Part shown: one piece after another, positions 38,477 through 60,066 of the stretch
Layout: every line of letters starts with the position of its first letter
Position numbering within the stretch: position 1 is the stretch's first letter
Made by a program: the position numbers and the translations under genes
The notes under the pieces: generated by a model
Told to the model about the DNA's origin: nothing
The model's database searches: none
What the model saw: only the letters and a program-made list of their open reading frames with translations
NCBI GenBank assembly: GCA_024742285.1
Contig: JANSYR010000006.1
Coordinates: 1-64,000 of the forward strand
Length of the DNA stretch: 64,000 nucleotides
Source of the DNA: a bacterium
Lineage (GTDB): Bacteria > Myxococcota_A > UBA9160 > UBA4427
Reading direction: 5' to 3'

Positions 38477-38552
38477 GCCGACGTAGCTCAGCTGGTAGAG
38501 CAGCTCACTCGTAATGAGCAGGTCGTCCGTTCGAGTCGGATCGTCGGCTCCA
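38477..38552 (+). tRNA. tRNA-Thr (anticodon CGU)
   Basis: Full cloverleaf: acceptor GCCGACG / CGTCGGC, D-arm GCTCAGCTGGTAGAGC, anticodon stem GCTCA / TGAGC with loop CTCGTAA (anticodon CGT in DNA, reads ACG), T-loop TTCGAGT. The discriminator T is followed by encoded CCA (38,550-38,552) and a T5 run. A tyrosine recombinase begins 126 bp downstream, making the 3' end a likely attachment site. Confidence 0.97.
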
Positions 38553-38678: not shown

Positions 38679-39761
38679 ATGGCTGAGGTCACACCGCGTC
38701 ACAAGCGAGGCACGGTTCGTCGGCGCGGCAACCGGTGGCAGGTCGACGTTGTGGTGGATGGCCGTCGTGTTCGGCGGAGCGCGCCAACGCGCGACGCTGC
38801 GAATGAGTTGCTCGACCAATTGCTCACGCGGATCAACGCCCAGGACCACGGCGCGTCACCGATCGACCACGGAGAGCAGGCCGCCGACCACACTGAACCG
38901 ACGGTTTCTCTGGTCCTCGAGCGATACCTCGCCAGCACTCGGCTCCATTGCCGACCCCGTACGATCAGGACGACCGAAGCCGCGATCCAGCGGCTCGACC
39001 AGTTCTTCGCGCAAGCGCTTGCGTCCAGTCTCTCTAGGACTGAGATCGATCGGTATGCCGCCGCCCGGCTGCGCGACGGCGTGGGGCCGCATACTCCGAA
39101 TCGCGAGCTCGCCTGCCTGCGGGCTGCCTTGGTTCAGGCGCGAGACGATGGACTCATTGAGCGAGCACCGCGGATTCGGATGCTTCGAACGGTCCGGGCG
39201 GTGCCTAGAGTCCTCTCGAAGCCGCAGATCAAGCAGCTAGTCACCGATACCGGCGAGTTCTCGGTCGTCTTCGCACTCGCGGCCGGAGCGGGACTTCGCG
39301 CAGCGGAGATGCGCTGGCTCACCTGGGCCGACGTCGATGCACCACGAAGCTCCATCATCATTCGAGCGAAGGGGACCTGGCGGCCCAAGACACATGCCGA
39401 GCGCGAGGTGCCTATGTCGCCGCGACTCGCTGAGCGACTCCAAGCGCACCGCGCGGCTCGAAGTTCGTCAGAGGACTGGGTACTGGCCGTTCCTCGGCAC
39501 CACGGACAGTGGAGCGAATCGGGCCTCAGTCACGCCGCAAGACGGCACGCCCAGGAAGCGAAAGTCTGGGCACCGGGCTGTAAACCGCTCCACGACCTCC
39601 GTCGATCCTGGGCGTCCCACCTCCTTGCTGCGGGCACGCCGATCGACACTGTTCGTCGCCTTGGCGGATGGGCCAGCAACTCGACCCTCGAACAGTTCTA
39701 TCTAGCTCCAACTACCGAGTCTCTCGACAAGGCGACGCGCGCCAGCAGAGACCTTCTTTAA
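38679..39761 (+). CDS. tyrosine recombinase/integrase next to tRNA-Thr
   Basis: 360 residues: N-terminal Arg-rich arm-binding region, core-binding domain (about 75-170), catalytic domain with Arg in GAGLRAAEMRWLTW, HDLRRSWASHLLAAG (HxxR), GGWASNSTLEQFY with Trp at the second-His position and nucleophile Tyr. All catalytic positions seem present. Position and orientation directly after tRNA-Thr are typical of the integrase of a genomic island. I could not find a second copy of the tRNA 3' end in the window, so the far attachment site is probably beyond base 64,000. Confidence 0.92.
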   Translation: MAEVTPRHKRGTVRRRGNRWQVDVVVDGRRVRRSAPTRDAANELLDQLLTRINAQDHGASPIDHGEQAADHTEPTVSLVLERYLASTRLHCRPRTIRTTEAAIQRLDQFFAQALASSLSRTEIDRYAAARLRDGVGPHTPNRELACLRAALVQARDDGLIERAPRIRMLRTVRAVPRVLSKPQIKQLVTDTGEFSVVFALAAGAGLRAAEMRWLTWADVDAPRSSIIIRAKGTWRPKTHAEREVPMSPRLAERLQAHRAARSSSEDWVLAVPRHHGQWSESGLSHAARRHAQEAKVWAPGCKPLHDLRRSWASHLLAAGTPIDTVRRLGGWASNSTLEQFYLAPTTESLDKATRASRDLL

Positions 39762-39847: not shown

Positions 39848-41088
39848 ATGCACGGCGAGATGGCCTTGGAGTCAGCCTGTGGACTCGACCTCTCGCGAGC
39901 GACGCTCGCGCACTGGATGGTCAAGATGGGCGACCTGGTCGAACCGCTGGTTGATCGGATCACAAGCATGAGATCCGCGCCTACGACTTCGTTTAGTGCG
40001 ATGAGACGCCCTTCCAGGTCTTGAAGGAGCCCGGGAAGACGGCCCAGAACCAGTCCTATCTCTCGGCGCTTCGCGGCGGTCCTCAGGAGCACCCGCTCAT
40101 CTACTGTGAGTACGACCCTTCGCGGAGCGGTGAAGTGCCGAAGCGGCTGCTTCGCGGGTTCGAAGGGTTCCTGCAGACGGACCGCTACGAAGGCTATGCC
40201 GCGATCGGACGCGAACCCAAAGTCGTGCACGTGGGCTGTTGGGCGCACGCGCGACGGAAGTTCGACGAGGCGCTTCGCGGACAGAGGTCGAAGAGCAGGA
40301 AGAGTTCGAAGAAGACGGCGAAGGAGAGCGTGGCGCGAAAGGCGATGGGCCAGATCCAGGCGCTGTATCGGATCGAGAGGAAGCTCAACGACGCGTCTGC
40401 TGAGGAACGTCACCGCGTGCGGCAGGCCGAGTCTGTGCCGTTGGTCGAGGCGCTTCGCGCCTGGCTGGACGACTCGATCGACCGAGTCCCGCCGCAAAGC
40501 CTGACCGGGAAGGCGATGGCCTACCTCGACCGTCAGTGGCCGAAGCTCGTTCGCGTGTTCGCGGATGGCCGGATCCCGCTCGACACGAAACGCGTTGAGA
40601 ACGCAATCCGACCGTTCGTGGTCGGACGGAAGAACTGGCTGTTCGCCGACGCGACGGCGGGATCTCGAGCCAGCGCCAACCTTTACGGGCTGGTCGAGAC
40701 GGCCAAAGCGAACGGGATCGAGCCTTGGGCGTATCTGCGGCACGTGTTCGATGCCCTGCCCAGGGCGACCTTGCCCGATCAGGTCGAGGCGCTGCTGCCC
40801 CAAAGCATCGATCCGGCGCTCATCCGGCACCCGGCCGCAGGACGTAGTTCGTCGAGCGCTTACCCTACTACCTCCATTCTGGAAGCCCAAAGTGGTGCAG
40901 GAAAACGCAGCACGTCACTCCGATCGTTGACAAAGGGGATAGGCCTTCGAAACGGCCCAGCTCACCTAGTCTACTTTCTGGGGGACGGGAGGGCAGAGCA
41001 CCCGAAATCGTCGTTTCTCCATCGATGCGCAAAAACTAGTAGGTGGCTGTTGAGTAGCTCAGACCCATCAGCATCGAGATTCGTCTAG
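39848..41088 (+). pseudogene. IS66-family transposase remnant (TnpC C-terminal part)
   Basis: From 39,848 one frame reads LDLSRATLAHWMVKMGDLVEPLVDR, the IS66 motif before the first catalytic Asp. The chain then continues in another frame, hits an in-frame TAG (39,994-39,996) just before CDETPFQVLKEPGKTA, and runs on with TDRYEGYAAIGR, the Glu motif TKRVENAIRPFVVGRKNWLF and a normal IS66 C-terminus near 40,850; the remaining codons to 41,088 look unrelated. The N-terminal half and the accessory ORFs are missing. The DDE residues survive but the gene is dead. Confidence 0.88.
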
Positions 41089-41319: not shown

Positions 41320-41670
41320 CTAATCGCCCCCGAAATGGCCGTTTCCAGTCGAAGCGTACAGCGGAAGACCGCAAGTCATGCAGTTGCGGGTCCACGGATT
41401 CGAGGCGCCGATGCCGGGAACGCTACTAGCTGTGTGGTAGCGCTCTCCACATCGTGGGCACTCGCTAAGCACGATCCTAATTCCACAGACGAGAACCCAT
41501 AGGGCTCCACCCACACCAAGAACCATAGTCGCCAGATCCGAACCTGATATCGCAAGCACCAACCCTGTCAAAGGCAACCAAAGCGCCGCCGACCACCAGA
41601 ATCGTCGGCGAGCAGTGCGAATCAGCTCCAAACCAGCCCGAAAACTCGTAGCCAGATCGCTCACGGACAC
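41320..41670 (-). CDS. zinc-ribbon membrane protein downstream of RHS gene
   Basis: 116 residues: two hydrophobic helices (SAALWLPLTGLVLAISG and MVLGVGGALWVLVCGIRIVL), then a C-terminal four-Cys ribbon with CPRCG and NCMTCGLPLY. Its start overlaps the RHS stop region by 10 bp, so it is translationally coupled to the RHS protein. That position is where immunity genes follow polymorphic RHS toxins, but the RHS protein here shows no recognisable toxin tip, so I leave function open. Confidence 0.72.
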   Translation of the reverse strand: MSVSDLATSFRAGLELIRTARRRFWWSAALWLPLTGLVLAISGSDLATMVLGVGGALWVLVCGIRIVLSECPRCGERYHTASSVPGIGASNPWTRNCMTCGLPLYASTGNGHFGGD

Positions 41671-44600
41671 TGCCCCGCCAACGAATCGTCGTCATTGTCA
41701 CCAAAGAGATCCTCTATCGCGCGCTTCCAGTTAAAGAGGGGCTCGACGATCGTAGTCGATGGAATGACATGTGCTTCGACAGGGGTGCCGGCCCCCAACC
41801 CGAATTGAACCTCGACACCGAACTCGTCGGAGCCACTGCGGGAGTTGAAATCGACGACGTCGACTCCAGCTACCGCTCCCTCGCCTGCAGACGCTCCCGT
41901 TACGGTCGAATCGCCTTCTAGATCGAAAATCGTGTCCGCGCTTGAAAGACCGCCCACAATGCCAGTGGATGCGCCGGCACCGATTTCTGCCCCTACGCCG
42001 TAGGTAAGTGCTATTCCGACGTTTCCGTCGTCGTCAGCAACGAGCGCAAGCTGCGCCTGTCCGCCCGCGCCTGCGCCGCCCGCCGTAAACTGCCCCACGC
42101 TAAATGTAAAGAGCCCCATCGGGTCAAGCGCCTGACTAGGACTGTTCCTTGCATACTGATAAAGGTGCAGACCTCCACGTTGACCAATCGGATCCGCACT
42201 AACGTACCGAGCTGAACTGGGGTCGTAGTATCGATGACGGTTGTAGTGAAGTCCGCTCTCGGAGTCGAAGTACTGACCTGGGAATCGGAGGTTCATCGAG
42301 ACATTAACTGAGTCCCCGTCAGGGTTCTCATCGACAATGGCACTACCGAACGAGCGATAGTCACTGGACCAGACAGGTTCTTCCTGCGAATCGACAAGAA
42401 TGGCCGGAGTTCCAAGATGATCCGGATGAACGGCATAGAGTTCCGCATTGGCCGCAACGCCATCCTCGACAAACAGAGGTGCCAGCGCTGCAGAATCATA
42501 GACGTAGCGCTTGACCGAAGCGCCAGTGCCGTCAAGCTCTTCGATCATCTGCTCCCCGAGCCAAAGGAACCAAGTGGTGTCTCCGCCGGCAACGCTCTTC
42601 TGGTATCGGCGCCCGAACGGGTCATGTCGATACGTCGCGATTGACGGACCGGCCTGCGTAGATCTGATCTCGGTTAGGGAACTCTCTGCGTCCCACTCGA
42701 AGTCGAGAACGCCGTTGTCGTCGAGGTTTCCATTGTCGTCATAGCTGACAGTCGCAGCAGAACCCGGAACGGTCGTGTACTGATCTAGAGAGTTGGCTAC
42801 GAATGCGCCGCCCCGATTCCCCGCAGCATCGTACTGGAAGCTCTCCGGCGATCCGGTCGCGGCATGCGCAGAAGGGAAGGAGGCCGCTGTGAGCTGCCGA
42901 GCCCCATCGTGGCCGTACGTCAGAATATCCGAGGCCGGTGACGGGCTCGCGTCGAACGCGATGCTCTCGACGACTCCACGCGCGTCCAACTCATAGTCCC
43001 GATAGAGCAGGATCGTCTCGCCAGGCAGCCCGTGCTGCGCGTAGACCGCGATCAAGTCTACGCGACCCGCGGCGTCAAAAACCCAGTCGTGGCGTACTCC
43101 AGAGCTGAAGTCGCGATAATCGCGGCGCCCACGTCCATCGAACACTTGCGTCATGAGCGCCGCGCTCGCGGACTCCGCTCGGACCTGCGAGAGCCTCTCC
43201 ATCGCATCATGTGCAAGGAAGAAGTCCTCGAGATTGCTGAATATGAGCTCGGAGCGATTGCCAGCACCGTCGATGACCTGCTCGACGGTACGCGAGCCCG
43301 TCGGTGCGCCCGAGCCGAGGAAGGTCACCGTCTCGCTGGTCCGCTCATCCCGTTCGTTGTAGCCGAATACGATCGAGATGCCCGAATCCCCTGCGGTCTG
43401 CATGCGACCTGCACCATCGTAAGTGAAACTGTGAGTCTCGCCTCCAGCGATCGTACGGAAGGTGTTCCGTCGCCGATTGTCGAATACGTAATCGACTTCG
43501 ACGCCACTCCGGGTCGTGACTAGATCGAGGTCGCCATTCATGTCCCACTCGAAGGACTCTTCTTTGTCGTCCGTAGACGAGTTGGGATCTCCGTCATGCA
43601 GGACCGAGCTCAACCGATCGAAGGGATCGTACCCGTATCCGGTCCTGTTTCCGCGGCCGTCTACGACATCGTCAAGCGTGCCGTTCGCGTGATAGCCGAA
43701 AGTCGTCGGCCCGAGAGTGGTTCCCGCCGGAGGAGTAGAGGTGTACAGAAGGTCGCGCTCGTCGAATAGGAACGTCCAGCGATAATCAGAAGCATCCTCC
43801 ACCCCGGTTCGATTGCCGTTGCCGTCGTAGAAGTACTGAATCTCATTGTTGGCCAGCCCGTTGCGTTCGAACTCAACTCGGTCCCTTTCGTCGTACTCCC
43901 ATGTCAATGACTCGAGAATCACGGCGGAGTCGAGCATTGCGCGTTGTCTCAAGTTCCCGTTCGCATCGTAGTACCGCTCTTCAGTCTGAGAGGCGAAGGG
44001 CGCGGGTCTCGTAATGGTCGCCAAGCGGTCAAGCTCGTCGTATAGGAGCTGCGTGCGGTGCCCGTTGTCTGTGGTGATTGCGGTCGGACGCCCGAGCTCG
44101 TCAGGATCGTAAGACGTTGTCGCCTCGTCGGTGGCCGACCCGTACGCGCGAATCACTCGCGCCAGATATCGAGTATCCGGCGGCAAGGAAGGGTTTCCCG
44201 GATCCGGCGTGTACTCGTACCGCGTCGTGTTCCCGTTCGAGTCCTCGAAGGACTCGAGCTGGCCTCGAGAATTGATGACGATGGTCGCGGCGTCGTTGTT
44301 GCCGCTAATGAGCGGATACTGGATCGATGTCAAATTGTAGGTCGTCGGGTCATATACGAACGTCGTTGTCTGGGTCTCGGGCGTGATGATCGTCTCTATT
44401 TGCTGGTAGGGCGTCGTGTACTGGAATGAAGTGCGCAAAGGCGGGTCTGTACTCCCAGGTTTGGGCCGCTCCTCGACGTAGACCAGGTTGCCACGCTCTT
44501 CCACGGGCCCAGAGACGAGAGGCCACTCCCAGTGCGTCGAGTTACTCTCGGGGTACGTAACATCAGTTAGACGACCTAGCGAATCGTAGAGATACGCTGT

Positions 44601-45935
44601 CTCGTACTTCGTACCAACCTGTTCACCCGTGCGAACTCCACGCGTAACAACTCGCTCGAACAGAACTCTGAAGTTGCTTGGATCGTATTCGAACTCCCAG
44701 TCCGTAGCGTTTCCGTCTGTGAGCACGGTGGTATTCGGAATCGACGTGTAGTCGAGCGAAACTCCTGCCCCGTCACCATAGGTCTGAGACGTGACACGCC
44801 CCTCTTCGTCGTAGACCTGCGACAAGAAAAGAGTGCTAGAGCCCTGCAAAGCAGGGCTTGTAACTTCGGTCACGTTGTGGAGATCATGCGGATCGGTATA
44901 CGCGAAGCTTGCGACGGCGGGCTCGACAACGACCTGCGTCGCCCCGCCAGGTAACGTCTCGAACGTCCGGACCGGGGGGCTGGACACCGTCGTCAAATTG
45001 CCCAACGAGTCGTGTCCGTACGACCAGATACGGCCCGTCCAGTCCTCAATCTCGTCCAGTCGTCCAGTGACGGGATCGTATCGAAGATCTACGGCACGAT
45101 CGTTCGCTGCAGCCTGGTCCGGGAACTTCACGCGAATCAACCGATAGTCGCGACCAATGAGCGTCTTGAAATCCTCCAGGTTGGCCCCTGGCGGGGCTGT
45201 CTCCTCGATTGCGGACAGCATTCGATCCGTGATTGAAAACTTCGGACGGCCGTAGAGCGGGAACTTCGCAGGCACACCCGGCGCCCCGTCCCACTCATAC
45301 AGGACCTCGTTGCCGTGACGGTCTGCTTTCCGAGTAAGCAATCCATGCGAATCGAAGTCGTAGGTTCGACCATCTGGCTTCGTCATCGTGTAGCTGCCGT
45401 CACCGTTCTGAACGATGCGCTCGTCTCCGCGAGTGGGCGAGTACCACTCGTTCGCGAAGCGGAAATACTCACGCGTCGTGCAGTTTCCGAAGGAAACGAT
45501 CAGCTTCCCCTCTGTTGTCGGCGAAACCGGCTCTCGAGCCTGCCGCAAGCGAACATTGGCCGCAAAATCCCACCCGTAGCCCAGCGGAGAGTCGTACGGC
45601 GAACCCGATCGGTAGCTGTGCCGAAGATCGATCGAGATCTCTGGTCGCGCGCCCGGAATAAAAAGTCCGGGTACATGCTGGTCTTCCGGCGTCAGAATGA
45701 ACTCACCTGTGACGACGTCAACCGGATCCGTCTTTCCTGGGCAGTCGTTCTGGTTGTCCGGATCGATCTCACCCTCTTCGTCTTCCTCTTCCTCAGCCGT
45801 CTCTCCACCTGTAAAGTTGTAGTTGTCTGAAAAGGCAGGCGGCACCAAGAAGCAACCGAAAACCACGAGCATGGCAAGAAACGATCCTACGAGCTTCAGG
45901 CGATCGAGCGTGGATTCCCTCGGGCTACGAGTCAT
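41661..45935 (-). CDS. exported RHS/YD-repeat protein
   Basis: 1,424 residues. Signal peptide (LVGSFLAMLVVFGCFLVPPAFS), an acidic Glu-rich patch, an RHS N-terminal domain (DPVDVVTGEFILTPEDQHVPG, YRSGSPYDSPLGYGWDF), a long array of YD repeats (YDxxGRL and YDANGNL-like units), and the RHS-associated core (FPGQYFDSESGLHYNRHRYYDPSSARYVSADPIG ending LDPMGL, split here only for description). About 140 residues follow, glycine-rich and without a known toxin motif, ending GQCP. A strong GGAGGTGA precedes the ATG. Such shells enclose or display C-terminal domains. Confidence 0.93.
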   Translation of the reverse strand: MTRSPRESTLDRLKLVGSFLAMLVVFGCFLVPPAFSDNYNFTGGETAEEEEDEEGEIDPDNQNDCPGKTDPVDVVTGEFILTPEDQHVPGLFIPGARPEISIDLRHSYRSGSPYDSPLGYGWDFAANVRLRQAREPVSPTTEGKLIVSFGNCTTREYFRFANEWYSPTRGDERIVQNGDGSYTMTKPDGRTYDFDSHGLLTRKADRHGNEVLYEWDGAPGVPAKFPLYGRPKFSITDRMLSAIEETAPPGANLEDFKTLIGRDYRLIRVKFPDQAAANDRAVDLRYDPVTGRLDEIEDWTGRIWSYGHDSLGNLTTVSSPPVRTFETLPGGATQVVVEPAVASFAYTDPHDLHNVTEVTSPALQGSSTLFLSQVYDEEGRVTSQTYGDGAGVSLDYTSIPNTTVLTDGNATDWEFEYDPSNFRVLFERVVTRGVRTGEQVGTKYETAYLYDSLGRLTDVTYPESNSTHWEWPLVSGPVEERGNLVYVEERPKPGSTDPPLRTSFQYTTPYQQIETIITPETQTTTFVYDPTTYNLTSIQYPLISGNNDAATIVINSRGQLESFEDSNGNTTRYEYTPDPGNPSLPPDTRYLARVIRAYGSATDEATTSYDPDELGRPTAITTDNGHRTQLLYDELDRLATITRPAPFASQTEERYYDANGNLRQRAMLDSAVILESLTWEYDERDRVEFERNGLANNEIQYFYDGNGNRTGVEDASDYRWTFLFDERDLLYTSTPPAGTTLGPTTFGYHANGTLDDVVDGRGNRTGYGYDPFDRLSSVLHDGDPNSSTDDKEESFEWDMNGDLDLVTTRSGVEVDYVFDNRRRNTFRTIAGGETHSFTYDGAGRMQTAGDSGISIVFGYNERDERTSETVTFLGSGAPTGSRTVEQVIDGAGNRSELIFSNLEDFFLAHDAMERLSQVRAESASAALMTQVFDGRGRRDYRDFSSGVRHDWVFDAAGRVDLIAVYAQHGLPGETILLYRDYELDARGVVESIAFDASPSPASDILTYGHDGARQLTAASFPSAHAATGSPESFQYDAAGNRGGAFVANSLDQYTTVPGSAATVSYDDNGNLDDNGVLDFEWDAESSLTEIRSTQAGPSIATYRHDPFGRRYQKSVAGGDTTWFLWLGEQMIEELDGTGASVKRYVYDSAALAPLFVEDGVAANAELYAVHPDHLGTPAILVDSQEEPVWSSDYRSFGSAIVDENPDGDSVNVSMNLRFPGQYFDSESGLHYNRHRYYDPSSARYVSADPIGQRGGLHLYQYARNSPSQALDPMGLFTFSVGQFTAGGAGAGGQAQLALVADDDGNVGIALTYGVGAEIGAGASTGIVGGLSSADTIFDLEGDSTVTGASAGEGAVAGVDVVDFNSRSGSDEFGVEVQFGLGAGTPVEAHVIPSTTIVEPLFNWKRAIEDLFGDNDDDSLAGQCP

Positions 45936-46752
45936 CGCGGTTCACCTCCGACCGAACCCGCAACCGCCCCTTCATCACCTGCAGGTCTGTCCCATCCCAT
46001 TCGCAGCTGCCGAACCTGAAGTCGCCTGATATGTCCGCAATGAAAGAGACCGTTCTCGTCTCCCCTTCCGGAAGCTCAACTCCGACTTCATAGTCCGGCT
46101 GGACGAAGTAGTGATTGCCCTTCGTCGAGGTCAGCTCGATCTCCAAACGATCCCCCGGCTCCACACTCAGATCGTTCGGCTCGAAGTACCACTCACTCGC
46201 CGTCATCGTAATCCGGTGGGTCACTCCGGTCGGCTCAGCTCGCTGCCGGAAGTTCTCCCCGAGCAGCACCTCGGCATCCGCCTCCCCGATCTGTGCCGAG
46301 GCGTCAATGTCGGTCAGCCCGGTCTCAGGGCCAGCAACCGGAAGGCCCGACGCGCGCCATCCGTTGATTCCGCGCTCCTGCATTAGTGCGACATCGGATA
46401 TCCCGAGGCCTCGAAGCGCTTTCACGGCCATGAAACCTCGAAAGTCCATGTTGCAGTACGGGATTACGAGCGCTGACCGATCGATCTCATCGACTCTCGC
46501 CGCGAACTCGCGCTCCGGAATGTTCACCGCACCAGGAATATGTCCTTCGGCGTACTCTTGAGGCTCTCGCACATCAACGAACTGGATCTTCTCCCCCGCC
46601 TGAATCCGCTCGACGATCGCTTGGGGCGAGAGCAGCGGAGTTCGACTCACGCCGCCCACATCGGAGGCGTGCGCCACCGCGGAGAGGAGAAGCAATGCGG
46701 AGGAGATCGCTGCGATCGCCGCACGATGCTTGGATTGGCCGATTCGGATCAT
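45925..46752 (-). CDS. exported rhodanese-cupredoxin fusion protein
   Basis: 275 residues. Signal peptide (AAIAAISSALLLLSAVAHA). Rhodanese domain about 36-138 with the VDVREPQEYAEGHIPGAVNIP signature and active-site Cys100 in YCNMDFRG. Then a cupredoxin-like beta-domain about 175-268 with SEWYFEPNDLSVEPGDRLEIEL and candidate metal ligands H214, C250 (FGSCEWDG) and M260; the usual second His is not evident. A periplasmic sulfur-transfer or redox role is suggested. It overlaps its upstream neighbour (stop/ATG) and the RHS start, so it is embedded in the operon. Confidence 0.88.
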   Translation of the reverse strand: MIRIGQSKHRAAIAAISSALLLLSAVAHASDVGGVSRTPLLSPQAIVERIQAGEKIQFVDVREPQEYAEGHIPGAVNIPEREFAARVDEIDRSALVIPYCNMDFRGFMAVKALRGLGISDVALMQERGINGWRASGLPVAGPETGLTDIDASAQIGEADAEVLLGENFRQRAEPTGVTHRITMTASEWYFEPNDLSVEPGDRLEIELTSTKGNHYFVQPDYEVGVELPEGETRTVSFIADISGDFRFGSCEWDGTDLQVMKGRLRVRSEVNRDDS

Positions 46753-47924
46753 GAAGAACTCCCCGACGACTCGAGAATGAAGGGCACCGTGACGGCGCCC
46801 CCGTGATCGTCGTAAGTGAGAACGTTGACGGTCAAGAAGTGCAGACCAGGCGACAAGTCATCCACCGCCAGGGTGAAATTGAATGGGCTTGACCCCTCCT
46901 CCTCTTCGAAGAGGAAAACCGAGTCAAGAAAAAACATCACCTCGAATCCTCCCGATACCAGGTTGGGAAGATCCTCAGGATCGAGCGTGACCCGCACTGT
47001 CGCCGGCCCCGAAATCTTCGCGACGCCGCCAGACGAGAGGCCATCCGGGTCAACAAGCTCCACCGCGAATCTAGGGTCGTGACAGTCGCGCGGCGCGTGC
47101 AGCGCATGCCTAAATCCGCTTCGAAAAGCCGATGTCTCGCCCTGCCGCGGCGAACGCTCGTCGTGTGCCGCAGGAACGACAATCGCGTTGCGGCCCAAGG
47201 CATATGCATGCATGGAGAAGCGAACGCGCGAGTCGCCGGACATGTCCAACACACCCGAGCTGTCGGTTCCGTCCCAGACCACCTCATACTCACCTGCGGC
47301 CTGCGGCTGCCAATCGTGAATCGTCCGCAGCAGCGGCAGTCCCTGCAGCATGGCGCGCAAGCGCACACGTGCCGGCTCCGGCAGCGCATAGGAGACGCGA
47401 CCGGACGCATCGTCGAAGGTAAACCGCATCGGCAGAACCTCTTCGCCCCCATCGACTGGATCGGCCCCATAGGCCGCAACGAGCTGTCCATTCTGAGCCA
47501 GCACACCGATCGCGTAGAAGTAGACGCCGGGACCGACCATCGCGCCGCCTTGGTCGGCGCCATCCCACTCGGCGAGCTGGCGCCCCTTCTCCCTTACATC
47601 GAGCTCCATCAGCCTTATCGCGGTCCCGCTCTCGTCATAGATGACGATGACGGGCTTGCCCTTTGCACGCAGGGTGAACGAAAGCTCATACGTGGCGCCA
47701 TCACCCGGCACAAAGAGAAATGGGCGCCCCGAGACGCGTCCGATCCGCTGACCACCAACCTGATTCCAGGAAGCGTCGAATCTGGAGAGTGCTTCCGAAG
47801 CTTCGGGTAACTCCTTCACGGCGCGAGACGCACACCCTGCGACAATGGTCGCGAGCAGTAGGGCGACGATGGCCACCAACATCCGCTCTTCGCCTCGCTC
47901 GCCGCGCGCGTTTTTCCTTGTCAC
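46749..47924 (-). CDS. lipoprotein with FlgD-like Ig repeats
   Basis: About 391 residues from a GTG at 47,922-47,924 whose GTGA overlaps the upstream stop; ATG 47,882 is the alternative. The lipobox is LLATIVAGC. The mature part holds beta-rich modules with the FlgD-Ig pattern (WDGADQGGAMVGPGVYFYAI and WDGTDSSGVLDMSGDSRVRF) also found in the giant protein of this operon. It has a C-terminal Ig-like domain (LSPGLHFLTVNVLTYDDHGG). Probably outer-membrane anchored and part of the same surface assembly. Confidence 0.82.
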   Translation of the reverse strand: MTRKNARGERGEERMLVAIVALLLATIVAGCASRAVKELPEASEALSRFDASWNQVGGQRIGRVSGRPFLFVPGDGATYELSFTLRAKGKPVIVIYDESGTAIRLMELDVREKGRQLAEWDGADQGGAMVGPGVYFYAIGVLAQNGQLVAAYGADPVDGGEEVLPMRFTFDDASGRVSYALPEPARVRLRAMLQGLPLLRTIHDWQPQAAGEYEVVWDGTDSSGVLDMSGDSRVRFSMHAYALGRNAIVVPAAHDERSPRQGETSAFRSGFRHALHAPRDCHDPRFAVELVDPDGLSSGGVAKISGPATVRVTLDPEDLPNLVSGGFEVMFFLDSVFLFEEEEGSSPFNFTLAVDDLSPGLHFLTVNVLTYDDHGGAVTVPFILESSGSSS

Positions 47925-48817
47925 GGCTGAACCTCGAGAATCGTCCATTCGGGATCCAACGCGACGATGTCACCCCCCCAGAAAGGCTGCTGGTGCTCGC
48001 CGGCCCTGGACATCTTCCACACATGGGGCTGACCGTCTTGCACCCGGACATACGCGATCTGCTCGCCAGTAGGAGACCAGGACGGCGACATCTCCGCGTC
48101 CGTCGAATCCGTAAGGCGACGAACGAATCCGAACCTCGTTCTGCGCCAGATATCGAAGTTCCCTGCGGCCGACGACGAGAAGAGCAGACCGGTCCCACTA
48201 GGTGCCGCTGCCGGCTCCAGAGCCCGAGAGTGCTCTTCCATGATTGCTTCGGGCTTCGGGTCGCTTCCCAAGGAAACTCGAAAAAGCTCGGCGCGACTGC
48301 CCGCGCTCGCGCTGGAGTACACGAGCTCCCGACCGCTCGGAGCCCACGAGTAGTGACGAATAAAGCCAGAAGAGGGCGTAACCAGGCGAGGCGACGCGTC
48401 GTCCGAGTCGAGAATGACGATCGCACTTCGATCATCGACATCCGTCCGAATCCGAGCGAGCGCAAGTCGACGTCCCGTCGGCGACGGCCTCGGCGTCAGT
48501 GCGGGCCAGAGGTCGGGCCGAAACGGCGCTTCGCCTCCGCTTTGGAGGTCGAGAACAAACAGCCGGTCGTTCCCGTCGCGGAAGAACACCCGTCGCCCAT
48601 CAGACGCCGGACGCCTCTTGTCGAAGCCGGACGTCGTTAGCCTCCGATGGGTGCGGTCTCGGACGTCGAATACCCAGACCTGCCAATACTGCATATCAAG
48701 CCGGCTGTAGATGATCGCCTCACGACCACTCTCCGCCGGACGATTTGCATGGCCACCCGCGCAACCGAATGCGAGGATGCCGATAACCAGGGCAACGCTC
48801 GACGTTCCGCGCATCAC
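47921..48817 (-). CDS. TolB/WD40-like beta-propeller lipoprotein
   Basis: 298 residues; lipoprotein signal (VALVIGILAFGC). Repeated propeller blades: SRLDMQYWQVWVFDVRDRTHRRL, RRPASDGRRVFFRDG, PRPSPTGRRLALARI, YSWAPSGRELVYSS and SPSWSPTGEQIAYVRV, each with the S-P-x-G-x-x-hydrophobic pattern of TolB-type propellers. Likely an anchored periplasmic scaffold. It is followed by the FlgD-like lipoprotein with overlapping stop/start and preceded, three bases away, by the giant protein gene. Confidence 0.85.
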   Translation of the reverse strand: MMRGTSSVALVIGILAFGCAGGHANRPAESGREAIIYSRLDMQYWQVWVFDVRDRTHRRLTTSGFDKRRPASDGRRVFFRDGNDRLFVLDLQSGGEAPFRPDLWPALTPRPSPTGRRLALARIRTDVDDRSAIVILDSDDASPRLVTPSSGFIRHYSWAPSGRELVYSSASAGSRAELFRVSLGSDPKPEAIMEEHSRALEPAAAPSGTGLLFSSSAAGNFDIWRRTRFGFVRRLTDSTDAEMSPSWSPTGEQIAYVRVQDGQPHVWKMSRAGEHQQPFWGGDIVALDPEWTILEVQP

Positions 48818-48820
48818 GGG

Positions 48821-51800
48821 TCAGGGGCAGTTGCAAGCGGCGGAGCCGCCAAGCGGTTCAGCCGGGATACGTGTGTCTACGCGAAATACGAGGTCCTCGG
48901 CAACGAATTCGCCCGTCACCTGATCCTCGATCTCGACCCGAACGCGGTACTTGCCGATCAGTGTTGTCACGGCCCCGCTCTCGTCCAACCCGTCCCACTC
49001 GAGAAAATGCGACCCGGCCGCAAAGGATGTATTCGACTCGAGCGTCCGAATGAGCTGATTGTTGGGGCTATAGACATCGACGTCGACGGTCGCCGGCCGC
49101 AACAGCTCGAAGAAGATCCGCGTCGACTGGCCAAAGACGGGCCGAAAAAGGTAGGGATTGAGGGCGAGCCGACGGATCTCCGCCGGGGGAGTCCTCACGA
49201 TTACGCTGTCCCTTTCGAGAGGCTCCGGGACTTCGAGGTATACGGTGTATGCGAGACCCGACTCCGAGAATTGACGATTCTCGTCGCGCGCGTTCCACAC
49301 CAAGGAGACAGGGCCGCTCGGGACGACCTCGTTTCCAAGGAGGGTCACGACACGATCGGGCGTCGGCGACGCCGTCGCACAGTCGCTACTCACCTGCACC
49401 TGAGGAGGATCGGGGTTCTGGGGGTCATCACCCGGTTCAAAGAGGCAGACCTTGACCGTGTGCCTGCCGGGATAATTCATCGTGTAGTCGATCTCGAGCC
49501 ACTCGTTCATGAACGTCGAGATCGGTTCCGGCATACCGCTCAGCGAGCTCCCACCATTCTCGAATCCGTTGAATTGGGCCGGGAATTGCCACAACGGCGG
49601 ATCGCCAATCGCGCGATCGTTGCCATCGTTGAGCACGACACTTCGACCGCTGGCGTCTGTTGCGGAGATCTCGACAAAGTACGCACCATTCGGCGCCACG
49701 GAGACCGGCACTTCGTCGGTGGTCCCGTCCCAAACTACCGAGTGGGGAGTGCCTCCAGTCCTTGACTCGTTGTCGACAAGCAGCTTTGTCGTCGCGCCGA
49801 GACCGGACGGTTTTAGCTCGACGGTGACGTCCGCATCGGCGGACAACTCGTAGGTGATCTGCACCTGCTCGCCAGCAAGCGGATCGATCACTTCTCGATC
49901 GAACTCCAACGAAACCACTTCAAGACGATCGACCGTCACGTCGACTCCAGTCTCGCTGGTGTTGCCGACCGCATCCGAGACCTGGAGTACGATCCGGATC
50001 GTGTCCTCTTCGGAGTATCTGGCTTCCGTCCCGTTGTCGCTTGGCAGAAATCCAAGAAGCCCGCTCTGCACATTCCCCGTATCGTTCGCGAACTCGTCGA
50101 AGTCCACTGGATCAAGGCCCGCTCCCCAGAGCAGCCGATAGTCTCCTGGATGATCGTCGTCGATGGTTCCGCGCACTTCCACGGGGCCGTAGTTCACGAT
50201 CGGCGTGAGACTGTTCGGCGTCTCGATGGCCGCCACCGGCGGCGTCAGATCAACGACGACCGAACCACCTGAGGCTACGTACTGCGCGCCATCAAGACTC
50301 GCCGTGAGTCGAAAGTCATAGATTCCGTCGGAAATGGTCCCCGAGGACACCTGTCCGGACCATTCTCCAACCGCAGAACGTCCACTCCCGGTGAACTGAT
50401 TGACCACGGAGCCACCCGACAAGACGTCGAGAGTCCAGCTTGCATCGTCCAGACTCAAACCTGCTTCGATCGACACCTTGTCGAACGCGCCGTCGTTGTT
50501 AGGAGAGAAAACCGCCAAGGACGCGGCCGGAGCCGACGCGTGCAGAACGCGCACCGTCCTGTCGGTAACGGCGGTTCCACCTGGCGAGTCCACTTCGAGT
50601 CTCACCGTGTAGATCCCATTGATCTCAGCCGACGCGTCCCACGAAACGAGCTGGCCGTTTGCCGGGACCGAAGCGATATCGCATGCGGGCGGATCGCCGG
50701 GTTGGCCACCCGCGGGCGATTCGCAAATCGTCGAAAACGCGGACTCCGCGGGGCTGTAGCCGTAAGCCTGTTTGATGCGATAGGCGGTCGCGCCAGCCCC
50801 TGCGGCTTCGCCCACGATCGCGATCGGACCCGCGGCCGCAACGCCGAGTTCAGCTGGCGCCGTGAGGCGGGCCACAGGCAGCGCGGAGTTGATCTCGACA
50901 GTTCCGACAACATCCGGCGCCGCAGCTACTGCGGCTCCAGCGCGATCTGCACTCAGAGTTACTTCGTACACACCGTCGGCGAGTGCGTTTTCCGGCGAGC
51001 CACCATCACCGCCCGACCACGGCTGCGAGACTGATGAAGCAGTCTCAGAGAAGGTCCGGACCACTTGCCCGCCCGTGTTCCGAACGTCGATCGTCCAGTC
51101 TACGGACTCGCTGAACTCGGCGGAGAAAACCGTCTCCGAACTCAGCCCGACAGACGGAAACTCGAGCGGTCCAAATGCCGCTGAGTCGACGAAGGGCTCC
51201 GTGCTCCCGATATTCACCGGGCTAGCCAGCCACGGATTCGAGAGGGTACCCGGAGCCTGAGGCGGACCAGGGTCTACTTCGATGTCGCCTGGAGCGGGAC
51301 CACCCGCAGCTCCCCACCAGTTGGCTCGCGAGTCGATGAGGACCGGGGATTCGGTAAAGAGGGCCGCGTCGAAGTTCCCCGAGAGGTTGTTCCCACGAAG
51401 TAGCGCCGGTTCGCCGTTTCCTCGAACCGCAATCGCATACTGGAAATTCGAGATCTCGTTGCCGACGATCAGGGGGTTGCAGTCGAAGGTGATCCCTCTC
51501 GGGCTTGCGCTCCCGCCCGACGCTCCGGGACCAACTATGGTATTGGCGCGAATCAGCGGGCGCGCTTCCGGCTCGTCGCACACGATGCCGTCGTCAGCGT
51601 CGCCGGTAAGCGTGATCGTGTTTCGCTCAATCGTGGGAGACGCGTGGTCCACCCTGACACCGTCTGCGCCGGCGAGCGACAGTACGATCTCGCTGTCCAG
51701 TAGGTAGAGATCGCTCGTCGACGTCGCCGCTGAGAAATCGTAGTGGACAGCACGCGCGACACTGCCTCCCCCGATTCCTTCGACTCGGATCCATTGGAGC

Positions 51801-54800
51801 ATGGAGCCAGATATCGCTCCATCTTGGTATCGAATCCCGCGCCAGGCTGACGTAATCGGACCGAAGACGATCTCGTTCCCGCTCGCGCCTACCGCGGTGA
51901 TCGTGCCCTTGAACGAAGCCGCCTCACTTCCTGCGCCACCAATGTCGATAAACTCGCCGCCACCTACGCGGATCTCAGAGCCCGCCTCAATCCCGAACAA
52001 GACAGGGCTCGACGCTCCGACCAGAAGGCCGTCTGGAAGGTGATAGCGGAACTGTTTCCACAATCCGCTTCTCGACAGGTTCGGTGGATCGACACCCTGG
52101 GAATCACTCGCTTCTACGTAGCTCGACGAGTTCGCACCGTTGATCAAGGAACCCTCCATCAAGCGGGCCACAAGATTCGGATGAACTGAGATCTGGCGAG
52201 CAGACGAGTACCCGTCGAAAATGACGTTCTCAAAGACCGCGGCGGCATTATCATCCGGATAGTAGACACCGCTTTCCAGCGTCGAATTCAGGATCGACGC
52301 CACTCCGCCATCTTCGCCTTCAACCGCGAATTGCGACGAACCCGGCGAGATCGTCCATCCGTCGAGCCGCGGCTGCCCGCCGACGACCTCAATGCCTGCG
52401 TAGGCTCCGCTCTGAATCGTCCCGTTCCGTAGTGATATCGATGACGAGACATCGACGAGACGAAGGCTCGAAGTAACAAACTCCTGCGTCTGACCAACTC
52501 CCACATCCTTGATCACAACATGGTCGAGCTCGGTAGCGGGTAGCGCGGACTCGAGAATACGAATTCCCCGCCAACCCGGTTCGCCGTCGTCCAAGAACTC
52601 CTCGAATACGATCGGCTCTGCGGCTGTTCCCCTGGCGACAAGGCCACCGGGCTTCTGCAGGTTCGAACTGCCGACTTCGAGCTCGCGGTTGTGATCGAAC
52701 TGAAGCACGGTCCCCGGAGCGAGCGTCAACACCGGCTCATCGTCGCCCGTGATGTAGAGCTCCACGTCAATTCGGTAGTTGAATTTGGGCCAGGCGCCGC
52801 TTCGACGGACGTAGCTGCTCCTCACCTCAACGTGACTATCCACCGCCTCGCCGGTAATCGTCGAAGTGTTCATGATGTCGGCAACAAGCGAGGCATCGAT
52901 CCGAAGAGGCGAATGGCTTCCGTAGTTCTCAAACGTCAGATCGCGATAGAGGGCGCCGTCCGCGTCGTGCTCCACGCGGATCCCGCCGGACGCGACAAGG
53001 TCGGTCAGGGTGATATTCGGCAGCCCAACCGTTCGAATGCTGTGATAACGGGGAGAGCCACCAGACCAGGTCGGTACAACAATCGACCAGTGATCAATCT
53101 CTGGCGCGCCGCCTTCAACCAGAATACCGTCGTCGAGGGTGTTGGATATCGAGCCATGGCGCAGGGGTACTTCGGCGCCGAGGTCGCGGAGTTCCACTGC
53201 CGCGAGCCCTCCAGCGCCGGCGTCGGAGATCGACACGTAGTCGAAGCGCCCCCCGGAGAGCACGTTCTCGTCAAAGAGAAGACCATCCCAGGCGCCGGGC
53301 GCCGAGGACGCGCCACGCATCTGGATCTCTGCAGCCTCGACTCCAAGGGCGTTGATTCCGCCGGACTCGTGGGGCGTCGAGATCGAGAGAGAGGCGCCAC
53401 CTGTGAAGACGACTTCGACGCCCGGCTCGATTGCTAGAACTGCGCCCGCCCGCACCGAACGGTCTCCTGAAACGGTGTAGGGGCTATTGAGAAGAGTCCA
53501 GGTGGTCGACGCGACGACGTCCGTATTTATGCTCACAGGCCCGGTGCTCGGCGCCGGTACGCCAGATCTTTCGACCGAGTCTGCAGTCTCGCTTCCTTCG
53601 ATCGCGCGAACCACGTAGTAGTACGGCTGGCCGTTTACGACTGCCGCGTCGTCGAAGCTCGTCCATGTCGTGGGTGACGGAGTGATGAGCGAATAGGGCC
53701 CGCCCGGAACATCAGCGCGATAGACGTTATACCCCGTGACAAGCGAGGAAGGGACCGGCTCCCAATCCAACACGAGCCTCGAGTCACCAACGTATACGTC
53801 CAGATCGCTGGGCGGACCGGCCGAACCCAAGAAATTTGAAACCGCCGGGCGACAAACGGGCTCTGGCCACGGCGACACCCTTTCCGCAAGCGCATCCGCC
53901 AGGAGGTCGAGATCGTCCTGCAAACAATCATCTGGGGTCCCAACCAGACTGCACTTGCTCGGCGAGGGCAGGCTGGCGAGCTGCCCTCCGACGAAGCGCC
54001 TCAGAAGCGCAAGATCACGAACATCGACGTCGCCATCGTTGTCGACGTCTCCGCATTGGCAAGCATCGCCGATGCCATCCGGTTCGCGGATCCCAGCGCC
54101 GCTGGAGTCCTCCTGCATCGGATTTGCCACATAGGGACAGTTATCCCGGTAGTTTCGGATGCCGTCGTCGTCCCAGTCGAGGTCGTCCGCCGCGGTCGCT
54201 CGGCTCCCCGGAATCATCACCAAAAGAAACGCGAACAGAACGGACTTCCGAGCCACTCGCGACCGACCCACCAAGAGGACCATCGCGAGAAACGCAGTCG
54301 CGATCCCGACCGTGAGCTTCGGCTCTGGGACTCGTGCGATCGCAGCGGGGGCAACGTCTCGAATCTCGAGCGCAGCGTCCACGATCTCGGCTCGCTCGAT
54401 TCGGACCGTCCCGCCCTCCGAGATTGCCCCCGACGTAACGGTCACCTCTCCGGCGCGAACAGGTGGAAGACTGCCTGATACTGCGGACAGACCGTTTACT
54501 CGCAGGCGCCGCGACGTGAAGTCGTACTCTGTCTCAGATCCGAGCGTCTCGTCGAAATCAATAAACTCAACGCCGTCGCTGGTCACTAGGATGAGATCGA
54601 ACGCGCAAGTTTCAGCGCCATCGCCGTCAACGCACGGCGTACCGATCGCACTCGCCTGACTGGGTAGCTGCCACCCTGGGTACGTCTCCGAGGCGGCGTA
54701 GATGAACAGAGGTGACGACGCGTCCGGATCAACAGCGACTGGCCCGTCGTTGCCCTCCTCTCCGTTGTCCGTAGGGCTGGCAAACACTCTCGGCTGCGTC

Positions 54801-54904
54801 TGTGCCGTCGCGTCTCCGGGGACGAAAAGACGCGCAACGCTCAGCAGAGATACGACGGCGAAAACCGCCATTGCCAACTGGCACCGCCGAAGACCGCTAG
54901 TCAT
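48821..54904 (-). CDS. giant exported beta-helix/FlgD-Ig protein with internal PEP-CTERM motif
   Basis: About 2,027 residues. A signal peptide (MAVFAVVSLLSVARL) leads a first domain of about 190 residues that ends in VPEP (192-195), a hydrophobic helix (197-213) and RSR: a complete PEP-CTERM sorting tag. The chain does not stop but continues through a second hydrophobic segment (LFAFLLVMIPG, 223-233) into a thrombospondin type-3/dockerin-like Asp-rich region (DWDDDGIRNYRDNCPYV, GDVDNDGDVDVRDLALL). Next come an FnIII domain, a long right-handed parallel beta-helix, several FlgD-like Ig domains and a terminal CNCP. Start at ATG 54,904 (GGGAGGGG upstream), overlapping the preceding gene. Confidence 0.9.
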   Translation of the reverse strand: MTSGLRRCQLAMAVFAVVSLLSVARLFVPGDATAQTQPRVFASPTDNGEEGNDGPVAVDPDASSPLFIYAASETYPGWQLPSQASAIGTPCVDGDGAETCAFDLILVTSDGVEFIDFDETLGSETEYDFTSRRLRVNGLSAVSGSLPPVRAGEVTVTSGAISEGGTVRIERAEIVDAALEIRDVAPAAIARVPEPKLTVGIATAFLAMVLLVGRSRVARKSVLFAFLLVMIPGSRATAADDLDWDDDGIRNYRDNCPYVANPMQEDSSGAGIREPDGIGDACQCGDVDNDGDVDVRDLALLRRFVGGQLASLPSPSKCSLVGTPDDCLQDDLDLLADALAERVSPWPEPVCRPAVSNFLGSAGPPSDLDVYVGDSRLVLDWEPVPSSLVTGYNVYRADVPGGPYSLITPSPTTWTSFDDAAVVNGQPYYYVVRAIEGSETADSVERSGVPAPSTGPVSINTDVVASTTWTLLNSPYTVSGDRSVRAGAVLAIEPGVEVVFTGGASLSISTPHESGGINALGVEAAEIQMRGASSAPGAWDGLLFDENVLSGGRFDYVSISDAGAGGLAAVELRDLGAEVPLRHGSISNTLDDGILVEGGAPEIDHWSIVVPTWSGGSPRYHSIRTVGLPNITLTDLVASGGIRVEHDADGALYRDLTFENYGSHSPLRIDASLVADIMNTSTITGEAVDSHVEVRSSYVRRSGAWPKFNYRIDVELYITGDDEPVLTLAPGTVLQFDHNRELEVGSSNLQKPGGLVARGTAAEPIVFEEFLDDGEPGWRGIRILESALPATELDHVVIKDVGVGQTQEFVTSSLRLVDVSSSISLRNGTIQSGAYAGIEVVGGQPRLDGWTISPGSSQFAVEGEDGGVASILNSTLESGVYYPDDNAAAVFENVIFDGYSSARQISVHPNLVARLMEGSLINGANSSSYVEASDSQGVDPPNLSRSGLWKQFRYHLPDGLLVGASSPVLFGIEAGSEIRVGGGEFIDIGGAGSEAASFKGTITAVGASGNEIVFGPITSAWRGIRYQDGAISGSMLQWIRVEGIGGGSVARAVHYDFSAATSTSDLYLLDSEIVLSLAGADGVRVDHASPTIERNTITLTGDADDGIVCDEPEARPLIRANTIVGPGASGGSASPRGITFDCNPLIVGNEISNFQYAIAVRGNGEPALLRGNNLSGNFDAALFTESPVLIDSRANWWGAAGGPAPGDIEVDPGPPQAPGTLSNPWLASPVNIGSTEPFVDSAAFGPLEFPSVGLSSETVFSAEFSESVDWTIDVRNTGGQVVRTFSETASSVSQPWSGGDGGSPENALADGVYEVTLSADRAGAAVAAAPDVVGTVEINSALPVARLTAPAELGVAAAGPIAIVGEAAGAGATAYRIKQAYGYSPAESAFSTICESPAGGQPGDPPACDIASVPANGQLVSWDASAEINGIYTVRLEVDSPGGTAVTDRTVRVLHASAPAASLAVFSPNNDGAFDKVSIEAGLSLDDASWTLDVLSGGSVVNQFTGSGRSAVGEWSGQVSSGTISDGIYDFRLTASLDGAQYVASGGSVVVDLTPPVAAIETPNSLTPIVNYGPVEVRGTIDDDHPGDYRLLWGAGLDPVDFDEFANDTGNVQSGLLGFLPSDNGTEARYSEEDTIRIVLQVSDAVGNTSETGVDVTVDRLEVVSLEFDREVIDPLAGEQVQITYELSADADVTVELKPSGLGATTKLLVDNESRTGGTPHSVVWDGTTDEVPVSVAPNGAYFVEISATDASGRSVVLNDGNDRAIGDPPLWQFPAQFNGFENGGSSLSGMPEPISTFMNEWLEIDYTMNYPGRHTVKVCLFEPGDDPQNPDPPQVQVSSDCATASPTPDRVVTLLGNEVVPSGPVSLVWNARDENRQFSESGLAYTVYLEVPEPLERDSVIVRTPPAEIRRLALNPYLFRPVFGQSTRIFFELLRPATVDVDVYSPNNQLIRTLESNTSFAAGSHFLEWDGLDESGAVTTLIGKYRVRVEIEDQVTGEFVAEDLVFRVDTRIPAEPLGGSAACNCP

Positions 54905-55727
54905 TACCCCTCCCATTCTCACCCGGAGCTTGCTGGAAGTTCTTGAGTTCGAGACCGGTCGTGTTGGTCCGGAAACGGCCGGACGGAGCGCTTGGCTCCG
55001 AGGTCGCCGCGCGCACCCCTGAGAGAAGGGCTAGCCCAACGAGCATAAGTGCGGCCGGAGAAGGCTCGGGAACCCAGGTCACGTCAAGCCGGTCGAACGC
55101 GATACCGGCTGAACCGGGAGCGGGATGTTCAAAACCGAACTGGACCCAGGAAATAGAGTCCCAGAGGCGCGTGTCTCCGACGTCGACGACCGAGTTGAAG
55201 TCGATCGAGCCAATCGTCGTGATCGATAGATCGCCGCCACGATCAGAGCGAATGTAGACCTCACCGACGGAACCAGTCTCGAGAAGCTCGATATCCACCG
55301 AATTCGCGTTGAAGGGGCCTTCATCCCGACGGCCAATCCGCAACCACGAAAACGTTCGACTGGCAGCGGGTGACGTCGTTCGCAAGTAGTACTCAACGTC
55401 GCCATCGCCGTCGGGATCTCGACGACTCACACTTGAACCAGAGCCCTGGGCCCTCAGATTCGAGAATCGGTCGTCTTCCGTATACGGCCTGCCTCCCGGG
55501 TCGTTGTCGCCGAACTCGAACACGGCAGACTCTCCGCTGTTCGCGGACAGGAGGAACGCAGCGAGTACCCCCGCAAGAACACTGGTTCGACTACCGCTCG
55601 ACAGACTCGGGCCGACTGCGCAACAGGCACTGGAGACAGGTCTGCCGAGAGCACGAAGCAAAGTCTCAATGAGAATGAGACGCGGATTCAATTCGATTGC
55701 CCTCAATCTCAAGTCTCGGCTCGTCAC
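54897..55727 (-). CDS. PEP-CTERM protein
   Basis: About 276 residues if the GTG at 55,725-55,727 is used; the true start is uncertain and may be nearer the signal peptide (SVLAGVLAAFLLSANSGESA). The secreted domain is Asp/Ser-rich and beta-type (FNSVVDVGDTRLWDSISWVQF). The C-terminal tag is VPEPSPAALMLVGLALLSGVRAA, the PEP-CTERM motif for exosortase, but about 35 residues follow it instead of the usual few basic ones. Its stop lies inside the start of the giant gene (ATGACTAG). First gene of the surface operon. Confidence 0.78.
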   Translation of the reverse strand: MTSRDLRLRAIELNPRLILIETLLRALGRPVSSACCAVGPSLSSGSRTSVLAGVLAAFLLSANSGESAVFEFGDNDPGGRPYTEDDRFSNLRAQGSGSSVSRRDPDGDGDVEYYLRTTSPAASRTFSWLRIGRRDEGPFNANSVDIELLETGSVGEVYIRSDRGGDLSITTIGSIDFNSVVDVGDTRLWDSISWVQFGFEHPAPGSAGIAFDRLDVTWVPEPSPAALMLVGLALLSGVRAATSEPSAPSGRFRTNTTGLELKNFQQAPGENGRGND

Positions 55728-56821: not shown

Positions 56822-57652
56822 TCATCTCGCGCATCTAAGCCGACCTTCCGCGTTCGCGGAGCAACGCCTAGATCTGGGTGGGCCGCAGGCTTCGAACCTG
56901 AGGGTCGGGGGTTCGAATCCCTCCCGGCGTGCCATTGAAATCAATGGGTTAGGCGACTCCCCCACCCCATCGATTTCCGGCCGCGCCGTATATCGCCGTC
57001 TTGCGCCGCCAAGATCTGCGAAATTCATATCGGACTCATCGCCCTTGACCACGTGGGCGTACACGCGAAGCGTGAGCGCTGGGTCGGAGTGGCCCAGGAC
57101 CTGCGCCACCCACTTAACGCTCTTGCCGGCATCGAGCGCCATCGTTGCAAAGGTATGGCGGGTACAGTGGAGCTTGAGTGGGCGAACTCCGTGCTCATCC
57201 TGGGCTCGGATACGGACGCGATCCCACACGCGCTGATGGTTTCGCGGCGAGAGCTGCGTGCCCGCGCGAGACGAGAAGATCCACTCAGGAATCTCCGCCC
57301 AACCGTTGTCGATTCGCTGCTGGCGACGAAAAGCGAGCAGCGAGAAGAACTCGTCCGCCACCACGGGCGACATCGCAACGTGCCGAGACTTGCCGCTCTT
57401 GGGAGTGCTCACATGGCCCTTGTCCAAGAGCGACCTTCGAATCGAGATTCTCATCGATTCGAAGTCGACATCGTCCCATTTGAGGCCCAAAAGCTCGCCG
57501 CGGCGAAGCCCGGTGTTGAAGAGGATGACAAGCTGGGGCGCAAACTGCGGCTCGTGCTCGCGTGCCGTTGAGATCAGATGCTCCACGTCCGACCGCGACC
57601 ACACGTCAACCGTGGAAACTTCGGTCGCTGCCACCGTCGCTATCCGACGCAT
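56822..57652 (-). pseudogene. truncated tyrosine recombinase reading into a tRNA remnant
   Basis: 276 codons. Only the catalytic domain remains: Arg in FNTGLRRGELLGLKW, HCTRHTFATMALDAG, LGHSDPALTLRVYAHV with the Tyr. The core-binding domain is missing. Upstream, NPARDIGEL is in frame but cut off by a TGA, while LRALGFAGLM lies one frame away, so removing one A from an AAA run near 57,682 would rejoin them. The last about 30 codons (from ARREGFEPPTLRF) are antisense to a tRNA 3' half. Confidence 0.8.
56864..56934 (+). pseudogene. tRNA remnant overlapping second integrase
   Basis: From about 56,886 the sequence is the 3' half of a tRNA: anticodon arm GCAGG-CTTCGAA-CCTG (candidate anticodon TCG), T-arm GGGGG-TTCGAAT-CCCTC, acceptor strand CCGGCGT, discriminator G and CCA. 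Upstream, ACGCC (56,864-56,868) could pair with the 3' GGCGT, but the next two acceptor pairs fail and no normal D-arm is visible. I read it as a decayed or attachment-site tRNA. The integrase frame on the other strand reads through it. Confidence 0.6.
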
Positions 57653-59904: not shown

Positions 59905-60066
59905 GCAACGGGTCGAGCGCACTCACGCCCCCGGCCATGGATATTGCCGCTTCGCCGCCAATGTCGTCGGCTACTCCTGCCACGCCCCCCACGGGGCCGA
60001 CCAGCGATTGTCCTATACTCCACTCGCGCTGCTACACCGAAGAACCCTCTAAGGGTGAGAGCTAGA

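Follow-up and report, generated by a model that had tools for sequence, protein, structure and literature searches.

A recurrent four-gene core within a seven-gene operon on a tRNA-Thr genomic island and its possible role in RHS protein display at the cell surface

Within the analyzed stretch of DNA (the window, which covers bases 1-64000 of contig C6; the genome measures 6.5 Mb), four genes of a seven-gene operon, encoding a giant protein, a propeller protein, a FlgD-Ig protein and an RHS protein, represent a core that recurs in other genomes. The recurrent gene block, its island location and a conserved RHS shell with unrelated tips were observed. With moderate confidence, this core is interpreted as a mobile accessory cassette that serves the surface display or delivery of an RHS polymorphic toxin. 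How RHS proteins with a signal peptide arrive at the Gram-negative surface, and remain there, without a type VI secretion system is poorly understood.

Organization of the Operon

All seven open reading frames described in an earlier, sequence-only reading of this DNA were located on the minus strand between window positions 41320 and 55727 (Table 1). The tight packing noted there was confirmed by coordinates, the six gene junctions measuring -26, +3, -28, -4, -11 and -10 bp (overlaps of 4-28 bp and a single 3-bp gap). Scans of the operon for promoters and terminators gave signals no higher than in shuffled sequence. Export signals of the products were read by eye, and domains were called with Pfam and NCBIfam profiles using curated cut-offs. 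Most of the domain assignments made previously were reproduced by these profiles, among them FlgD-like Ig modules in two products (PF13860 in the giant and in the FlgD-Ig lipoprotein); the PEP-CTERM assignment of gene 1 and the cupredoxin-like domain stayed below cut-off. Gene 1 reached 19-20 bits against PEP-CTERM families, under their cut-offs, and 10.5 bits against TIGR02595 (cut-off 16); its PEP-CTERM motif is visible by eye despite these scores. The giant's internal PEP-CTERM with a second signal, its TSP3/dockerin module and the genomic island had not been recognized in that reading.

Table 1. Features of the operon and of the adjacent island end (window positions; aa, amino acids).
Feature	Position	Strand	Evidence or remark
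attL, last 47 bp of tRNA-Thr(CGT)	38506..38552	+	perfect repeat (47/47 bp) at C6:85770-85816
Tyrosine integrase of the island	38679..39761	+	PF00589
Zinc-ribbon-motif membrane protein, two helices, 116 aa	41320..41670	-	ORF call
RHS protein, 1424 aa, DUF6531, YD repeats and core	41661..45935	-	Pfam/NCBIfam; cassette core
Variable C-terminal tip of RHS protein, no family	41664..42110	-	no Pfam/NCBIfam match
RHS-associated core	42111..42359	-	TIGR03696
Exported rhodanese (aa 48-134) with cupredoxin-like domain (aa 178-247)	45925..46752	-	Pfam/NCBIfam
FlgD-Ig lipoprotein, 399 aa, three Ig-like sandwiches	46749..47948	-	PF13860; cassette core, best marker
Propeller, TolB/PD40-like lipoprotein, 298 aa	47921..48817	-	PF07676; cassette core
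Giant, 2033 aa	48821..54922	-	ORF and Pfam/NCBIfam
C-terminal FlgD Ig-like domain of giant	48929..49129	-	PF13860
Right-handed beta-helix region of giant (part)	51356..51661	-	PF13229, 24.5 bits (cut-off 25.9)
Dockerin-like module of giant (aa 291-345)	53888..54052	-	PF00404, 20.5 bits (cut-off 22.9)
Thrombospondin type 3 (TSP3) repeat of giant (aa 247-270)	54113..54184	-	PF02412, above cut-off
Internal VPEP, hydrophobic and basic stretch, then second hydrophobic stretch ending AxA (aa 198-244)	54191..54331	-	conserved at 10 loci
N-domain of giant (aa 41-196)	54335..54802	-	homologues in class; cohesin-like fold suspected
Gene 1, PEP-CTERM-like exported protein, 276 aa	54897..55727	-	ORF call

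Genomic Island

The G+C content drops from 0.70 to 0.60 near 38.5 kb of the window, the end of the tRNA gene is perfectly repeated over 47 bp, and integrases lie near both ends, the second being a tyrosine integrase just inside the far end (C6:84450-85529); the operon is therefore placed inside a genomic island of about 47 kb at tRNA-Thr. Direct repeats derived from the tRNA and an integrase are the features by which tRNA-integrated islands are recognized, and both are present here.

Within the island, a third integrase fragment was observed (window 56822-57652), as was the remnant of an IS66 transposase immediately past the operon's downstream end (window 40021-41088); the Thiodictyon cassette described below is also interrupted by IS66. 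The island also contains a defence-like cluster (G000:C6:72587-78888; L014:8587-14888) encoding a CHAT protein, an unknown protein, an MBL-fold protein matching LmuA, RTasMBL and Avs1a models, and a subtilase that also matches a defence-protein model. Furthermore, genes for an HD-associated-region protein, an IrrE-like peptidase (PADLOC capP, 43 bits) and a nucleoside deoxyribosyltransferase stand in a row at window 59944-63343, possibly forming another conflict module.

Recurrence of the Core Genes

The FlgD-Ig marker was found at full length in 6 of the 91 class genomes searched; across 379 genomes of the phylum, no further full-length relatives were obtained, the remaining matches being partial and confined to the FlgD_ig domain. 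A contig profile scan with the FlgD-Ig alignment returned three loci, all already among the genome-search matches, and the protein had no match in phage records. RHS cores occur in 74 of 96 class genomes. Since the marker is rare while RHS cores are common, the linkage of giant, propeller, FlgD-Ig and RHS genes is specific and informative. These four genes follow the same order on one strand in four other class genomes (G016, G032, G025 and G047), so that their grouping goes beyond chance, and such genomes are diverged (25-35% identity). The propeller gene adjoins the FlgD-Ig gene in five other class genomes. In G088, propeller and FlgD-Ig genes are followed by a multihaem cytochrome gene, and a beta-helix giant diverges from them; no RHS gene stands beside this pair, which counts against the toxin-display reading. 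The giants of G016, G032 and G047 can be aligned with each other for the greater part of their length, and dockerin-like, beta-helix and FlgD-like regions occur together in them (the N-terminus of the G032 protein is cut off by the contig end); the window giant has mainly the FlgD tail and a beta-helix stretch in common with them.

Moreover, two gammaproteobacterial replicons were seen to carry rearranged cassettes. One of them, plasmid pTs485 of Ca. Thiodictyon syntrophicum, encodes, in this order, a PKD/FlgD protein, a small helical protein, an RHS protein, small genes and IS66, followed by a 352-aa protein, FlgD-Ig and the PD40 propeller, the last two lying about 9 kb from the giant and RHS genes. 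The block of Photobacterium sp. GJ3 starts with a rhodanese, a ferric-reductase-like membrane protein, a propeller-like protein and FlgD-Ig, and continues with a CBM/PKD/FlgD giant, a small helical protein, RHS, a 150-aa protein and an orphan RHS piece. Its propeller-like protein was assigned by position and appearance and has no significant BLAST match to that of the window.

Neighbourhood of homologues in other genomes, set beforehand as the test of the operon, was thus conserved for the core, i.e., four of the seven genes. The proposal of one seven-protein machine was not borne out, as gene 1 and the zinc-ribbon gene occur in none of the other cassette copies seen and the rhodanese recurs only in the Photobacterium copy. 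Among neighbouring genes, multihaem cytochromes 49% identical to each other flank the G025 and G088 cassettes (L020:10122-11351, L024:1735-3084), and ChrB_C proteins are encoded near the G047 and Thiodictyon cassettes (L022:9003-10253, L111:20317-20775).

RHS Protein and Following Gene

RHS/YD repeats and the RHS-associated core were detected above cut-offs in the window protein (PF05593, TIGR03696). The RHS shells of five cassettes align (E-values down to 1e-91), and their tips are unrelated to each other. In Photobacterium, the core of the orphan RHS piece is 98% identical to the one in the intact gene, and the two tips differ. Taken as sequence features, a conserved shell, unrelated tips and an orphan tip are hallmarks of polymorphic toxins, and the RHS tip is predicted to be toxic. 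No cassette RHS tip matched a named toxin family in Pfam or NCBIfam, which counts against a toxin. In G033, a single genome of the class, 31 RHS-core matches were counted, many in short frames, which suggests arrays of orphan tips.

Known RHS architectures were also compared. No PAAR domain, as in PAAR-RHS effectors of type VI secretion systems, was found in the window RHS protein, in which Pfam detects DUF6531 and which has an N-terminal signal-like segment. Regarding the teneurin superfold of FN-plug, NHL and YD-shell, NHL was absent and the TEN_YD-shell match was weak (21 bits, cut-off 50). Likewise, the Pfam scan of the RHS protein returned no TcB/TcC domains of Tc toxins (SpvB, integrin-like propeller).

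Teneurin-like surface RHS toxins with downstream immunity genes have been demonstrated (PMC13018210). In the window, the zinc-ribbon gene overlaps the RHS gene by 10 bp, and its membrane protein may be regarded as a candidate immunity protein for the RHS tip; this role is a guess because none of its homologues elsewhere lies within 1.5 kb of an RHS gene. At the Thiodictyon locus, a small gene is annotated as MafI family immunity protein.

Giant Protein and Its N-Terminal Fusion

Residues 41-345 of the giant comprise, in this order, the N-domain, VPEP, a hydrophobic and a basic stretch, a second hydrophobic stretch ending ATA, TSP3 and the dockerin-like module. The same in-frame order was seen again in eight other genomes and, within this genome, in a paralogue encoded on contig C31. 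Fused proteins of the C31 type are compact, at about 650 aa. The passenger of these fusions is a GDSL-like hydrolase, as judged by its motifs (L041-L048, G000:C31), outside an RHS cassette; the N-terminal module with its internal PEP-CTERM is accordingly common to a non-cassette protein family. In all 10 fusion loci, [AS]-x-A immediately precedes the start of TSP3. Three genomes (G062, G012 and G035) encode the first half as a PEP-CTERM gene of its own, whose TGA overlaps the start of the second gene by 4 bp; the product of this second gene is exported and comprises a lamin-tail-like module, TSP3 and a dockerin-like module. By sequence comparison, the start of the giant is a fusion of two exported proteins, a PEP-CTERM half followed by a signal-bearing half. 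Because the halves are overlapping genes in some genomes and fused in others, they look like functional partners. Separate initiation of the second half was considered and rejected: the fusion loci have no conserved internal start, and at L045 no ATG, GTG or TTG lies between the PEP motif and the mature second half.

For the suspected cohesin fold of the N-domain, hhalign gave no significant match, an AlphaFold2 model from a single sequence was uninformative (pLDDT 33), and PF00963 (cohesin) had no match in this genome. Cohesin-dockerin pairing between the N-domain and the dockerin-like module is an attractive guess. Pfam cohesin matches read in the class (L103-L110) belong mostly to proteins with PEP-CTERM tails.

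Four exosortases are encoded in this genome, one at window 2621-3382. The earlier proposal of a surface apparatus linked to exosortase held in part: surface adhesion or competition is the most economical reading, while the exosortase link failed for the cassette, the giants of other copies that are readable from the N-terminus showing no PEP-CTERM feature. In this genome, the link consists of gene 1, weakly, and the internal PEP-CTERM of the giant's N-terminal module.

Proposed Working and Alternative Readings

For a toxin-displaying cassette, all core products would leave the cytoplasm by Sec. The propeller and triple-Ig lipoproteins would sit in the outer membrane, lipid-anchored, and the giant, which has a long beta-helix and ends in a FlgD-Ig tail, may serve as stalk or scaffold. 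The RHS shell would enclose the tip until contact, and the gene after RHS may protect the producer. The giant's first approximately 245 residues, an in-frame fused PEP-CTERM protein, would likely be cut by exosortase and signal peptidase, yielding an anchor and a released giant. The rhodanese-cupredoxin is probably an optional redox or thiol partner, because the redox neighbours of other copies are different ones (a multihaem cytochrome, a ferric-reductase-like protein or ChrB_C proteins). The cassette encodes no outer-membrane export pore, which counts against toxin display. A more far-reaching version is offered tentatively: propeller, triple-Ig protein and giant may form a dedicated, type VI-independent apparatus for RHS toxin export and display, common to Myxococcota-type and gammaproteobacterial lineages, the giant here being made as a polyprotein that exosortase and signal peptidase split into anchor and partner.

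Alternatively, the cassette might build a scaffold for surface adhesion or matrix, with RHS as a structural, non-toxic part and tip variation reflecting ligand choice, a somewhat doubtful reading. It is favoured by the beta-helix, dockerin-like, PKD and CBM5/12 modules of the giants, by the absence of RHS in G088 and of any tip representing a known toxin, and by the resemblance of the FlgD-Ig protein to adhesin Ig arrays. An AlphaFold2 model of that protein from four sequences showed three Ig-like sandwiches (pLDDT 66), and Foldseek matched it best, at low TM-scores, to PDB structures of Ig arrays from giant adhesins, so that only the fold class was taken from this comparison. The orphan RHS tip and the MafI-type immunity gene at the gammaproteobacterial loci speak against a mere scaffold.

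A surface redox or metal-handling complex, in which rhodanese, cupredoxin, multihaem cytochrome and ferric-reductase-like partners do the work and the large proteins only display them, is considered unlikely. The window encodes a rhodanese-cupredoxin, Photobacterium a rhodanese together with a ferric-reductase-like protein, homologous multihaem cytochromes lie beside the G025 and G088 cassettes and ChrB_C near those of G047 and Thiodictyon. However, the partner varies from copy to copy, only the large proteins being constant, and the cupredoxin-like match is below cut-off and contains one Cys only, not followed by the usual His. The Photobacterium rhodanese is 51% identical to that of the window over 85 residues; in a comparison with plasmids it was the best match (2e-23), the best other one listed reaching 4e-12. 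A contig profile scan with the rhodanese-cupredoxin gave no matches. Selenoprotein status of rhodanese paralogues (in-frame TGA) was rejected, the TGAs in the one copy inspected lying past the domain end as ordinary stops. 

Chance packing of island genes without joint function is very improbable: the mobile island with its IS66 and integrase remnants and the three of seven genes mostly unlinked elsewhere would fit, but a core order kept at 25-35% identity and, rearranged, in another phylum contradicts it for the four core genes.

Significance and Comparison with Known Systems

In the open-access literature searched, no papers were found on PEP-CTERM with dockerin or on rhodanese with RHS and FlgD, and a search for RHS repeat, FlgD and operon yielded only an unrelated transcriptome paper. 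FlgD and rhodanese are mentioned neither in PMC3482391 nor in PMC13018210, and PEP-CTERM is not mentioned in the former. The open-access papers searched thus yielded no account of this gene combination, which lends weak support to its novelty. For RHS surface display, the small block of recurrent partner genes provides named deletion candidates. Moreover, the ten loci with an internal PEP-CTERM followed by a second signal provide a natural test case for exosortase cleavage within proteins.

With secreted RHS/YD polymorphic toxins (WapA-like, teneurin-like; PMC3482391, PMC13018210), the window RHS protein has in common the Sec signal, the YD/RHS shell, the conserved core, the variable tip and a small gene immediately downstream. 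It differs in that its gene belongs to a conserved block together with those for giant, propeller and FlgD-Ig, and the NHL/FN-plug architecture is unmatched. The FlgD-Ig protein resembles the hook-cap protein FlgD in its Ig-like fold; in contrast to FlgD, it has three Ig domains, a lipobox or signal peptide and no flagellar context, the FlgD N-terminal domain gave no match and the FlgD equivalog scored 35.7 bits (cut-off 230). PD40 propeller repeats are common to the cassette propeller and TolB of the Tol-Pal system, whereas the cassette protein reaches 76 bits against the equivalog cut-off of 343, is shorter and in some copies is a lipoprotein. For an internal sorting tag, the internal MYXO-CTERM of Myxococcus MXAN_5598 is a published precedent (PMC11980579), which likewise has its tag inside the protein and a proposed two-gene fusion; in the giant, however, the tag is of the PEP-CTERM type, the half after it possesses a signal-like segment and an AxA site of its own, and this layout is kept at 10 loci.
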